A stretch of 64,000 nucleotides of DNA from Haloprofundus salinisoli (GTDB lineage Archaea; Halobacteriota; Halobacteria; Halobacteriales; Haloferacaceae): contig NZ_CP083663.1 in assembly GCF_020097815.1 (NCBI RefSeq), positions 1,116,001 to 1,180,000 on the forward strand, in the 5' to 3' direction. The translations under genes were made by a program, and so were the position numbers. The notes below the pieces were generated by a model. The model ran no database searches. It was given only the letters and a program-made list of their open reading frames with translations, and was not told the origin of the DNA. Positions 3-53,775 of the stretch are shown here, in pieces (the first letter of the stretch is position 1; each line of letters starts with the position of its first letter).

Positions 3-212
3 GATCTGTTCGGTGCGGAGAACATCAACGTCGTCTTCGGTCTCGTCTCCGTCTCGTTCGCCATCTCGGGGCTCTTGGCCCCGCCGTCTGCGGGTCTCGT
101 CTACGACGCCTTCTCGAGTTACGCGCCCGCCTTCGTCGCCTCGGGGGTTCTCGGCGTCCTCGGCGCGGCGATGGTCGGCGTCGCCGACCGGTTGACGACG
201 GCCGCCTCCTGA
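3..212 (+). CDS. MFS permease, C-terminal fragment (partial)
   Basis: The frame is open from the left edge to a TGA at 210-212, so only the last 69 residues are present. They form two hydrophobic helices (around VVFGLVSVSFAISGLLAPP and VASGVLGVLGAAMVGVA) joined by a short loop containing GLVYDAF, as in the last pair of helices of major facilitator transporters of the oxalate/formate antiporter type. The substrate cannot be inferred. The gene converges on leuS with an 10-base gap. The real start lies outside the window. Confidence 0.6.
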   Translation, partial: DLFGAENINVVFGLVSVSFAISGLLAPPSAGLVYDAFSSYAPAFVASGVLGVLGAAMVGVADRLTTAAS

Positions 213-222
213 GTGTTCTACG

Positions 223-3135
223 TTATTCGATGTGAATCGCCGGGCGGAACGGCACCGCCGCCGACGCTCTGTCGCCGGGGTCGTAAGCGTCCTCGCCCTC
301 GGCGTACAGTTCGACGTCGGCGCCGAACTCGTGGGCGAGGAAGCCGGTCGCCTCCTCGTAGGCGGCGTACTCGTCCATCTCGGCCATCGCGTCGACCGTC
401 TCGTCGTCCCGGCCGCGGACGACCTCCACGAGGTCCTGCACCAGTTGGTTGACCTCGTTACCCTTCTCGCGCAGGTCGGGGTTCTGCATCACCTGTCCCA
501 TCACCGCGCCCACGTCGTCGCCGGCGTCGGCGACCACGTCGAACACCGCTCGCTTCCAGTCGGCGGCGACGTACACGCGGACCACCTCGGGGTCCGTCTC
601 GGTGACGCCGACGATGTCGCGCACGTCGTCGGTCAGGCGCTCGATCTGGCGCTCCTGAATCTCGACGTCGGGTCGAATCAAGTCCTCGTCCACCTCGGGC
701 CACGGCGCGTCCTCGGCGGCCGTGCCGGTCAACTGCTCGTGCAGTTCGTTGGCCATGAACGGGACGAACGGCGCGAGGAGGCGCAGGCGCGTCTCCAGCA
801 CCTTCCGGAGCGTCCAGCGCGCGCCCGGTCGGTCGGTGTCGGTCCGGCGGCGATACCAGCGCAGGTTCTCCTCGAAGCCGTAGAAGGCGGCCTGACTCGC
901 GCTGCGCGTCTCGGAGTTCTCCATCGACTCGGTGACGCTCTCGACGGTCGCCTGCAGTTTCGACAGCAGCCAGCGGTCGACGTGTTCGAGGTCCTCCTCG
1001 CCCTCGGGGCCGTCTCGCGGCCGTCCGCCGCTCGACCCTTCTTCTGACTGGGGTTCCGCGCTCTCGACGAGTTCTTGTGCGCGGTTCCAGAAGCGTTCCA
1101 ACTGGCTGCGGACGCTCTCGACCTGGTCGTCGCGCCAGTCGTAGTCCTGCCACGGCTCCGCCGAGTTGAGCAGGAAGAAGCGGACGGTGTCCGCGCCGTA
1201 GTTCTCGATGGCGGTGCCGGGGAGGACGACGTGACCCTTCGAGGAGGACATCTTCTGTCCCTCCAGCAGTCCCATCCCCATCACGACGATGCCCTGCGGC
1301 CAGTTCGGTTCGTCGAACAGCTCGGCGTGGTGGAACAGGTAGAACGTCAGGTGGTTCGAGATGAGGTCGTTCGCCGAGAAGCGGTAGCTCACGGGGTACC
1401 AGTAGTCCCACTCCTCGCGCAGTTCCAGTGCGCGCTCGTCGGGGTCGGAGACGGCCTCCGCGCCGTAGAACAGCGTGTCGAAGAACTCTCTGGTCAACTC
1501 CTCGGTCGGCACGTCCCGCAGGCGGTGGGCGACCGTGTAGTAGGACATGTAGATGGTCGAGTCCGACAGCGGTTCGATGACGAAGTCGGTGTCCCACGGC
1601 AGCCGCGTCCCCAGCCCGTAGTTGCGGATGCAGGGCCACTCGTTCAGCCAGTCGATGGTGTGGTCGTACTCGCCGCGGGTGTTCTCCGGGATGGCGTCCA
1701 TCCCGTCGACGACGCGCTTCGTCTTCGCCTTCCAGTCCTCGTCGTTGTAACGCAGGAACCACGTGTCTTGCTCGGCGACGACGACGTCGCCGCCGCAGCG
1801 GCAGACGACCTCCTCGGAGAACTCGTACATCGAGTCGAACGCGCCGGAGTCGCGGTAGTCCTCGCGGAACTGGTCGCGGATGTCCTCGACGACCTCGCCG
1901 GCGTACTCGCCGTACATGTCGAGCATCGCGCCGCCGTGGAACTCCTTGTTGTAGAGCTCCTTCGTCGCCTCCGCCAGCGCCGGATCGTCGGAGGACTCGA
2001 TTTCCCGGGACTCGACGGCGACCCGCGCGGGAATCTCGCCGTAGTCCTCGATCTCGAGGATGGGAACGGGGTCGATGGCGTCGACTTCCGCGGGGTCGAT
2101 TCCATACTGCTCCATCCGCTCGGCGTCGGCTTTCGCCTCCCGCAGCGCCACGTAGTCGTCCGGCGAGTGCGCGGGCACGGACATGACGACACCCGTCGCG
2201 TTGTCGGCGTCGACGAACGAGGCGGGCAGCACGAGCACCTCGTCGTCGGTGACGGGGTTGGTGACGCGCTTGCCGACGAGTTCCTCCCCGCTGACCGTCT
2301 CGTGTACCTCCACGTCGTAGGCTTGCAGGCGCAGTTTCTCGGCCGCTTCGGCGGAGACGAACCACGACTCGCCATTCACGTCGGCGACGACGTACTCGGC
2401 GTCGGGGTCGATGTAGGCGTTCGTGACGCCGTACACCGTCTCGGGGCGGAGGGTGGCCATCGGGGCGACGACCGTCTCACCGTCCCGCTCGAAGGAGAAT
2501 CGAACCAGCGTGTACTCCTGGTACTCGGCGGTTTCGCCCTCCAGCAGGTCGTGGGTCGTCACCGGCTGCTTCTCGTTCGTGCAGTACTTGACCGGGTGTA
2601 GGCCCTTCTCCAGCAGCCCGCGGTCTTTCAGCGTCTCGTACTGCCAGGTGATGAACTTCGAGTAGCGCTCGTCGTTCGTCGTGAACTCGCGTCGCCAGTC
2701 GACCGACAGGCCGAGCGACTTCATTCCCTTCTTGTAGTGCTGTTCGATGAAGTGGCGGGCGAAGCCCATCGGCGTCTCCAGTTCCTGCAGCGTCTCCTCG
2801 GGGACGTTGTACGTGTCCTTCAGGACGCTCAGTTGCTTCTCCTCGCCCTTCTTCAGACGCTCGACGGCACCGATGATGGGCGTGCCGGTGACGTGCCACC
2901 CCATCGGGAACAGGACGTTGTCGCCCTGCTGTCGTCGGTAACGGGCGTAGACGTCGGGGACGGTGTACGTCCGGGCGTGACCGATGTGCATGCCGCCGCT
3001 GGGATACGGATACGGCACCGTGATGAACGTCGTCTCCTCGTCGTCGGGGGCGTCGGCGGGGTCGGCCTCGTATCGGCCCGTCTCGGCCCAGCGCTCCCGC
3101 CAGCGCTCTTCGAGTTCCTGCGGGTCGTAATCCAT
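223..3135 (-). CDS. leuS: leucyl-tRNA synthetase
   Basis: This 970-residue class I synthetase charges tRNA-Leu in the cytoplasm. The HIGH signature appears as HIGH at residues 50-53 inside SGGMHIGHARTYT. The KMSKS signature appears as KMSSS near residue 628. Between them lie the inserted CP1 editing domain (APMATLRPETVYGVTNAY and SVPAHSPDDYVAL) and the WPxG-like zinc/catalytic region. The C-terminal third carries the anticodon-binding helices. Length and order match archaeal LeuRS. The ATG at 3135 is supported by a TATA-like box centred about 28 bases upstream, which fits a leaderless transcript. The protein is strongly acidic, as expected in a haloarchaeon. Confidence 0.98.
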   Translation of the reverse strand: MDYDPQELEERWRERWAETGRYEADPADAPDDEETTFITVPYPYPSGGMHIGHARTYTVPDVYARYRRQQGDNVLFPMGWHVTGTPIIGAVERLKKGEEKQLSVLKDTYNVPEETLQELETPMGFARHFIEQHYKKGMKSLGLSVDWRREFTTNDERYSKFITWQYETLKDRGLLEKGLHPVKYCTNEKQPVTTHDLLEGETAEYQEYTLVRFSFERDGETVVAPMATLRPETVYGVTNAYIDPDAEYVVADVNGESWFVSAEAAEKLRLQAYDVEVHETVSGEELVGKRVTNPVTDDEVLVLPASFVDADNATGVVMSVPAHSPDDYVALREAKADAERMEQYGIDPAEVDAIDPVPILEIEDYGEIPARVAVESREIESSDDPALAEATKELYNKEFHGGAMLDMYGEYAGEVVEDIRDQFREDYRDSGAFDSMYEFSEEVVCRCGGDVVVAEQDTWFLRYNDEDWKAKTKRVVDGMDAIPENTRGEYDHTIDWLNEWPCIRNYGLGTRLPWDTDFVIEPLSDSTIYMSYYTVAHRLRDVPTEELTREFFDTLFYGAEAVSDPDERALELREEWDYWYPVSYRFSANDLISNHLTFYLFHHAELFDEPNWPQGIVVMGMGLLEGQKMSSSKGHVVLPGTAIENYGADTVRFFLLNSAEPWQDYDWRDDQVESVRSQLERFWNRAQELVESAEPQSEEGSSGGRPRDGPEGEEDLEHVDRWLLSKLQATVESVTESMENSETRSASQAAFYGFEENLRWYRRRTDTDRPGARWTLRKVLETRLRLLAPFVPFMANELHEQLTGTAAEDAPWPEVDEDLIRPDVEIQERQIERLTDDVRDIVGVTETDPEVVRVYVAADWKRAVFDVVADAGDDVGAVMGQVMQNPDLREKGNEVNQLVQDLVEVVRGRDDETVDAMAEMDEYAAYEEATGFLAHEFGADVELYAEGEDAYDPGDRASAAVPFRPAIHIE

Positions 3136-30818: not shown

Positions 30819-31762
30819 CGGTCCTCGCCGTCGCCGACCACCGCCGCGGTGACCTCCGCGACGTGAGCTACGAACTCGTTACCGCGGGCCGCCAAGTCGC
30901 CGACGCGACCGGCGGCGACCTCCACGTCGCGGTCATCAGCGGCGACATCGACGGGTTCGCCGAGAACCTCAACCTCGCGGGCGTCGACACCGTCCACACC
31001 GTCGAGAACGGCGAGGAGTTCAATCACGACGTGTACGCGGGCGCGGTCGAGGCGCTGTACGCCGACGTCGAGCCCACAGTCCTGTTGATGCCAAACAGCG
31101 TCAACGGCCTCGACTACGCACCGGCGGTCGCCAACGCGCTCGACCTGCCGCTCGTCTCGGATGCGGTCGACTTCGACTACGACGACGGGCTCACCGCGAC
31201 CCGCGAGATGTACGGCTCGAAGGTCGAGACGACCGTCGACGTCGACGCCGAACGCGTCGCCGTCACGATTCGCGGCGGCGAGTGGCCCGCCGCCGTCGAC
31301 GCCGGCGACGCCGAGATCTCGGCGTTCGACTACAGTCCCGACGGCGAACTCGGCTCTCGCGTGCTCGGCTTCGAGGAAGTCGCCGGCGGCGACGTCGACA
31401 TCACCGATGCAGACGTCTTGGTCTCTGTCGGCCGCGGTATCGAAGAGGAGGAGAACCTCGAGCTCGTCGAGGAGTTGGCCGACGCCCTCGGTGCGACGCT
31501 CTCCTCGTCGCGCCCCATCGTCGACGCCGGGTGGCTCCCGCCGAACCGGCAGGTCGGCCAGTCCGGTAAGGTCGTCACCCCCGACGTCTACCTCGCGGTC
31601 GGCATCTCCGGAGCGGTCCAGCACGTCGCCGGGATGAAAGGCTCCGACACCATCGTCGCCATCAACACCGACCCGAACGCGCCCATCTTCGACATCGCCG
31701 ACTACGGCATCGTCGGCGACCTCTTCGACGTGGTGCCGGCGCTCATCGAGCAGTTCTCCTGA
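30815..31762 (+). CDS. etfA: electron transfer flavoprotein, alpha subunit
   Basis: The 315-residue partner of EtfB has an N-terminal domain ([20 protein letters not shown]). The C-terminal FAD-binding domain carries [55 protein letters not shown] and [18 protein letters not shown], the standard FAD-site motifs of EtfA/FixB. It overlaps etfB by ATGA. No fixC or fixX follows; instead comes a hairpin-rich intergenic region. Confidence 0.96.
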
Positions 31763-31782
31763 ACCCCGACCTTTTGCGCTGC

Positions 31783-31900
31783 GGACCGCCTCCGGCGGCC
31801 CTCGGCAAAATCTCGACCAAAAGCACTCCTCACTCATTTCAGCGCGGCAAGCCGCGCTTCCATTCGTTCGTCGGCCGAAAATCGCTCTGCGATTTTCGCA
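31783..31900 (+). repeat. multi-hairpin intergenic element downstream of etfA
   Basis: Three inverted repeats lie in tandem. They are CCGCC-TCC-GGCGG within 31783-31801, AGCGCGGC-AA-GCCGCGCT at 31841-31858, and GAAAATCGC-TCT-GCGATTTTC at 31877-31897. Between the first two lies the core ctcggcaaaatctcgaccaa (31801-31820). A related element with the same core lies downstream of tRNA-Pro (53700-53775). No ORF is supported here. It may end etfBA transcription or be a dispersed structured repeat. Confidence 0.65.
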
Positions 31901-32041
31901 CGCGACGGGACCGCGTCCTGTGAATGGCCTCGGTCGCGGACCAATCCCACGTGAAATCGGCCGAGGAAAGACACCAAGTGGCGACCTCCTTTTCTCCGTG
32001 TTTCGGTACGTACTTCCCTGACCGTCCCTACCCGTCCGATA

Positions 32042-53605: not shown

Positions 53606-53678
53606 GGGACCATGGGTTAGCCTGGTATACTTCGGGCCTTGGGTGCCCGTGACCCCGGTTCGAATCCGGGTGGTCCCA
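53606..53678 (+). tRNA. tRNA-Pro (TGG)
   Basis: The 73-base gene folds with the acceptor stem GGGACCA/TGGTCCC, the anticodon loop CTTGGGT (anticodon TGG) closed by CGGGC/GCCCG, and the T-arm CCCGG-TTCGAAT-CCGGG. The discriminator is A78 (53678). There is no intron and no encoded CCA. A short T-run follows. Confidence 0.93.
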
Positions 53679-53685
53679 TCCCACC

Positions 53686-53691
53686 TTTTTT
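53686..53691 (+). terminator. T-run after tRNA-Pro
   Basis: Six T residues lie 7 bases after the mature tRNA 3' end, a usual archaeal transcription stop. Confidence 0.5.
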
Positions 53692-53699
53692 CCGCCTCG

Positions 53700-53775
53700 G
53701 GGTCGCGCTTCGCGCGACCCGCTCGGCGTGAAAATCTGGACCAAAAAGGCCGCGACTCGCTTAGCTCGTCGCGGC
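53700..53775 (+). repeat. multi-hairpin intergenic element downstream of tRNA-Pro
   Basis: The hairpin GGGTCGCGC-TTC-GCGCGACCC (53700-53720) is followed by the core ctcggcgtgaaaatctgga and ccaaaaa (53722-53747). A second hairpin is formed by GCCGCGAC (53749-53756) and GTCGCGGC (53768-53775). The order hairpin, CTCGGC-AAAATCT-GACCAAAA core, hairpin matches the element after etfA at 31783-31858, although the stems differ in sequence. This argues for one family of structured repeats. Confidence 0.65.

Follow-up and report, generated by a model that had tools for sequence, protein, structure and literature searches.

What are the two hairpin-rich stretches behind etfA and behind a tRNA-Pro gene, and how did they come to lie there? 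Both are found in the window analyzed here, a stretch of 64,000 nucleotides (C1:1116001-1180000) of a haloarchaeal chromosome of 3.42 Mb (G000; G and L numbers are our handles for genomes and loci). The original prediction described two related regions with a shared core, three stems at 31.8 kb, and a structured repeat family that may act as terminators, RNA-stability elements or remnants of small mobile elements. The core, AAAATCT[C/G]GACCAAAA, is present at 31807-31822 and 53731-53746, and the three stems are visible in the sequence. With up to 2 mismatches allowed, the core has no third match in the window (shuffle mean 0.01). What had been described is the right half of a quasi-palindrome, whose left half, beginning at 31767 in copy 1 and at 53681 in copy 2, was overlooked. 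The whole pattern, ACCTTTT...AAAATCTNNACCAAAA, matches the window twice (31769-31822 and 53683-53746) and the shuffled sequences never. The layout obtained from aligned copies is NN-ACC-T(3-7)-hairpin-A(3-7)-[T/G]CT-N'N'-ACC-A(3-7), and the window contains the following parts.

31767 to 31822, plus strand: element copy 1, F orientation, behind etfA; NN=CG, ACCTTTT, hairpin, AAAATCT, N'N'=CG, ACCAAAA (core and whole-pattern matches)
31841 to 31858, plus strand: accessory hairpin 2 of the longer (B-type) form (perfect 8-bp inverted repeat)
31877 to 31899, plus strand: accessory hairpin 3 of the B-type form (10-bp inverted repeat; equivalent hairpin position in L403 and L028)
53681 to 53747, plus strand: element copy 2, F orientation, behind tRNA-Pro; NN=CC, ACCTTTTTT, hairpin, AAAATCT, N'N'=GG, ACCAAAAA (core and whole-pattern matches)
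53750 to 53774, plus strand: HP1 hairpin (CCGCGAC...GTCGCGG), adjoining the ACCAAAAA end of copy 2 (from the sequence; many copies have a similar hairpin there)

Copy 1 starts 4 nt past the stop codon TGA (31760-31762) of etfA, a gene identified by its Pfam ETF_alpha match, and copy 2 starts 2 nt past the mature 3' end of tRNA-Pro (53606-53678). In both, NN is complementary to N'N': CG (31767-31768) with CG (31814-31815) in copy 1, and CC (53681-53682) with GG (53738-53739) in copy 2. The inter-hairpin linkers of copy 1 are found again in other B-type copies.

Both window copies are members of a haloarchaea-wide structured repeat family, whose elements are short (about 55-150 bp) and non-coding. 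The loose pattern found 13 copies in the G000 genome, against 0 for the reversed-pattern control. Copies are present in 54 of 99 related haloarchaeal genomes, and in 51 of the 78 good ones, with the control at 0 throughout. The predicted repeat family was thus borne out, with many copies, compensatory changes in the outer pairs and a spread over many haloarchaeal genera; the outcome named in advance as contrary to it, a lack of both further copies and compensatory changes, did not arise. The family seems unpublished, as far as open-access papers show: that literature on haloarchaeal repeats yielded no description of it, the only related papers being those on SMR/PATE, REP and terminators, and a search of open-access papers with core sequence strings found nothing related.

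The compensatory changes were counted with a regular expression that makes no demand on pairing, which gave 65 matches in 305 records. NN is fully complementary to N'N' in 54 of these, one pair is formed in 5, and none in 6; these six come from the pattern scan, have AT-rich inserts and do not belong to the genome set L001-L065. The combinations CC/GG, GC/GC, CG/CG and GG/CC occur. In a set of 90 elements, selected with at least one NN/N'N' pair required, 86 are fully paired (permuted mean 60.3, highest 69), and folding beats mononucleotide shuffles on both strands (mean z -3.3 and -3.5). However, this covariation need not reflect RNA, since three elements at gene ends have NN entirely or partly within the stop codon and yet keep a complementary far partner (L403, GA/TC; L470 and L476, GG/CC). 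NN also lies wholly or partly in the stop codon in L422 and L425, where the partner is unreadable. The three complementary cases suggest that the outer pairs are copied from the host flank, for example by palindrome correction. Nor is covariation proof of an RNA function, because there is no clear strand bias of G-U pairs; an RNA-strand bias was considered and set aside as weak (54 G-U pairs on one strand vs 36 on the other). At the gathering threshold, Rfam reported two tRNAs alone in the whole window, and at 31750-31950, with E up to 1, it gave one sub-threshold match (18.3 bits vs 38 for gathering). Thus no known Rfam family matched the element, copy 2 being searched at the gathering threshold and copy 1 also at E up to 1. 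ARAGORN placed a 95-nt tRNA-Arg (CCT) at window positions 173-267, which Rfam did not report at threshold and which is perhaps intron-containing or atypical.

In F orientation, the NNACC end mostly lies 0-5 nt past a stop codon or tRNA end, and the hosts include EtfA, PanB and RadA. In R orientation, the stop codon of the gene comes first and the element next, with its TTTTTGG side facing the gene. Pfam-based hosts in R orientation include IlvD, MaeB (PTA_PTB domain), PheT, a GatA-like amidase, ornithine carbamoyltransferase, an ArgZ-like enzyme, PurH, thiolase, M29 peptidase, HMG-CoA synthase, diphthamide synthase and molybdopterin oxidoreductase. Two further hosts we take from their sequences to be IleRS and PolD, for which Pfam gave DUF5915 and nothing, respectively. 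Placement was also compared between the 51 elements without and the 39 with a duplication of the gene end. Among the former, a stop codon lies at most 13 nt from the NNACC end in 29, and at 0-5 nt in 28; 6 have a gene on the R side only and 16 on neither side, tRNA ends explaining some of them. Among the latter, 36 have a recognizable gene ending just upstream, in R orientation, and in none of the 39 does a stop codon lie 13 nt or less from the NNACC end. By comparison, a T4 run at most 10 nt past the stop codon is found in only 2 of 50 window genes. Behind tRNA-Arg or tRNA-Pro, L054 (1196-1600), L060 (1196-1600) and L433 (1501-1800) contain hairpins in which a fragment of the tRNA 3' end is inverted; a direct copy of the tRNA end follows and adjoins CCACC and the element. 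These arrangements resemble fold-back or nested insertions. At the tRNA-Pro of G001 and G003 (L433 and L434), other hairpins interrupt the element between ATCTG and TGGACC, which makes the palindrome a target in its own right.

The original prediction overlooked the gene-end duplications that many relatives carry. Behind 39 of the 90 elements, upstream sequence is directly duplicated (local score of at least 14); several of these loci are orthologous, and the independent duplication events therefore number fewer than 39. The order in R orientation is gene end, stop codon, sometimes HP1, TTTTTGGTNNAGATTTTT, hairpin, AAAAAGGTN'N' and a second copy of the gene tail. This second copy repeats the final ~30-100 bp of that gene, ending near the stop codon, and starts exactly at the foot of the element. 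In controls, mismatched pairs reached a score of 15 in 1.6%, and 2 of 75 window ORF ends showed a downstream duplication scoring at least 14, both of them weak, at 126 and 214 nt. Neither of the window copies, both in F orientation, shows a detected duplication. A head of 3-5 nt stands between the element and the aligned copy at 20 of the 35 listed junctions, and comprises three bases agreeing with the triplet that precedes the copied stretch in the target, followed by 1-2 extra bases, mostly C or T. Over these 20 junctions, which include related ones, the head triplets match the target at 39 positions out of 60 (mean 17.7 and maximum 32 in 10,000 permutations). The remaining junctions have no head (8), 2 nt (1) or longer altered patches (6, one of them an unread N).

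Tandem arrays exist, young copies carry tails identical to that of their host, and some tails carry small indel differences (L001, L324). Purely foreign gene ends were considered and rejected: the tails of a glutaredoxin-like gene in G001 agree with each other and differ from those of congeners, and Haloferax maeB tails agree within species and differ between them. Since tails are alike within a genome or species and unlike between them, gene conversion or unequal crossover must act. Differences between tail copies fall on the three codon positions as 9/6/41 (34 loci), which is compatible with either history and is not taken as proof.

Relatives provide occupied and element-free sites for the same genes. 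The glutaredoxin-like gene, named from its sequence, carries the element and the duplication in G001, with the spare copy continuous with the DNA of the downstream gene; the orthologs in G000, G002 and G004 run straight into that same gene. A second match nearby suggests that the G003 ortholog may also be occupied. The maeB site is occupied in G000 and G004 and empty in G001 and G002, and Haloferax species have their own common junction there, with one tandem array. In both of these genes, the congeners without duplication are also without the element. The same gene may have different junctions in different genera, as in maeB and the polD large subunit. In the latter (29 of 30 loci read), the R elements of G000 and G002 have a common junction, which differs from that of the R elements in G025 and G070. 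F elements occur in G010, G017, G028 and G061, G031 has a variant array, and many other genomes have no element there. For etfA (27 of 30 loci read), the F form is found in G000, G001, G070 and G076 and the R form, together with a duplication, in G023 and G028; other genomes retain decayed or truncated remnants. In all five congeners, panB has an element or element-like hairpin a few nt from the stop codon; the hairpins differ and two are degenerate. A variant family, TTTTTCCTCCAGGTTTT...AAAAAGTGG, occupies the same polD and etfA places (L465, L469, L405 and L414), in L465 in tandem with a duplicated gene tail. In G066 (L491, C1:2581800-2586300), the polD large-subunit gene is separated from a second copy of its 3' end by about 2.2 kb of DNA containing a long reading frame, and the divergent C-terminus (DKNRPSTIADFM vs DKNKQSGIADFM) is encoded by the copy on the side of the gene. 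Larger DNA uses this kind of site as well. Overall, the element-free comparisons favor insertion without proving it, because clean deletion between direct repeats also yields empty sites.

Our preferred explanation, which we regard as slightly on the probable side, is a transposase-free, REP/SMR-like mobile palindrome that duplicates gene ends. The element would insert at gene 3' ends. In R orientation, insertion would directly duplicate the target tail: the host gene would retain its full end, stop codon included, and the spare tail would be placed on the far side of the element. An F-oriented element would come to lie directly behind the stop codon or tRNA end. Recombination between the direct copies could then produce tandem arrays, homogenized copies and clean deletion of the element. 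The T-runs on both strands should end transcription, which may be why the element is tolerated or kept. We infer that the duplications were made by insertion and not by duplication at a pre-existing hairpin, and that the element is mobilized in trans by an enzyme; for the two window copies, insertion would follow from the behavior of the family. Points against this explanation are the wide variation of tail lengths, which is unusual for a transposase, the 51 of 90 elements, both window copies included, that show no duplication, and the negative results for Y1 transposases and viral contigs given below. Among the functions first offered, the small mobile element is the best supported; the original interpretation as a whole is partly supported.

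Two candidates for movement were rejected. RAYT is one branch of the Y1 transposases, and a Y1 (RAYT-like) mover does not co-occur with the element in present-day genome content: G000 has 11 strict copies and 0 Y1 matches, and across 79 genomes the Spearman correlation is 0.10 (p 0.36). For viral carriage, the core alone matches many viral contigs among the matches listed, and the full two-part pattern has 0 matches in the viral contigs scanned.

The surprising part of the finding is the duplication with its junction scar. We tentatively consider it possible that this is an insertion process of haloarchaea not described before, in which a tiny palindrome enters the coding tails of housekeeping genes and tRNAs, rebuilds the end by a ~30-100 bp duplication with a constant scar (3 target bases and 1-2 added, mostly pyrimidine), and spreads as a harmless mobile bidirectional terminator cassette. 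If this is true, haloarchaea own a class of non-autonomous repeats that is harmless by construction, since the gene that is hit is regenerated, and the element may reset transcript ends in many genomes. The puzzle would then be which enzyme or replication process makes such duplications with a constant scar. Furthermore, duplicated tails behind haloarchaeal genes would not necessarily be traces of viruses or plasmids, and covarying hairpin arms may originate at the DNA level without any RNA function.

Template switching at an older terminator would explain the start of the second copies exactly at the element foot, but we consider it unlikely. The replication fork would stall at the foot of the hairpin, jump back and recopy the gene tail, giving gene, hairpin, tail and sometimes a second hairpin. 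Tandem and half-deleted second elements (L062, L042, L128, L372), the resemblance of the inverted tRNA-end fragments to fold-back synthesis, and NN overlapping the stop codon while its partner stays complementary, as palindrome correction would give, are consistent with it. However, it predicts genes with a hairpin and no duplication, and in the two genes compared the relatives lack the hairpin too; most R-orientation cases are also without a second element behind the spare tail.

Site-specific recombinases of viruses and plasmids that use gene or tRNA 3' ends leave those ends with a duplicated tail, and the duplicated ends observed here match that outcome. The elements would then be minimal remnants or circles integrated as attachment-site cassettes, to which the 2.2 kb stretch in G066, with its divergent copy on the gene side, and the small tail indels of L001 and L324, as if of foreign origin, would also conform. 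This is distinctly improbable, as 60-150 bp is too small for an integrase, many targets that are unrelated to each other carry the same element, the viral collection contains no full-pattern match, and young copies have tails identical to the host's own. Ordinary bidirectional terminators, alike merely through shared function, are very improbable. In their favor, T-runs directly follow stop codons and tRNAs, T-stretches act as terminators in Haloferax volcanii (PMC7237163), and the panB position is kept in five congeners while its hairpins change. The long shared core, fixed layout and paired NN speak against them, T-runs near the stop are not the usual gene end in the window, and the tail duplications require another cause.

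The mobile palindrome proposed here may be compared with several known systems. MITEs make a fixed short target duplication, whereas that of the element varies from ~30 to ~100 bp. Integrative elements of site-specific recombinases are bordered on both sides by the duplicated 3' end of a gene or tRNA, as 39 of the 90 elements are, but encode the recombinase, which inserts of ~55-150 bp do not. REPs cluster just behind stop codons. As described in the accessible text of PMC3733652, REP/BIME sequences are, like the element, short extragenic palindromes with many copies, single and in arrays, and without their own transposase. In that same text, REPs have a GTAG or CGTC tag at the foot and are moved by RAYT, CGTC REPs being without a dedicated transposase; the element has feet of NNACC and N'N'ACC with no such tag, shows no link to a Y1 transposase, and makes gene-tail duplications, which are not among the REP features described there. 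The SMR and PATE of Haloquadratum walsbyi are likewise haloarchaeal, non-coding and about 50-110 bp long (accessible part of PMC3119063). SMR have inverted ends, as the element does, and a mover given there as unknown; PATE are IS605-derived palindromes without inverted ends, with the palindrome near the end. By these partial descriptions (PMC3119063), SMR and PATE cause no target duplication, which sets them apart from the element, and SMR-A enter other mobile elements, whereas the element lies at gene ends. A bacterial-type intrinsic terminator was rejected, as the T-run precedes the hairpin on both strands. Archaeal T-stretch terminators have T-runs a few bases past stop codons, as the element has, and in Haloferax volcanii T-stretches terminate transcription, 95% at a T5C site (PMC7237163). 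A termination role would fit the T-runs and placement of the element, which differs from these terminators in its T-run before the hairpin on both strands, its long conserved core and its tail duplications.
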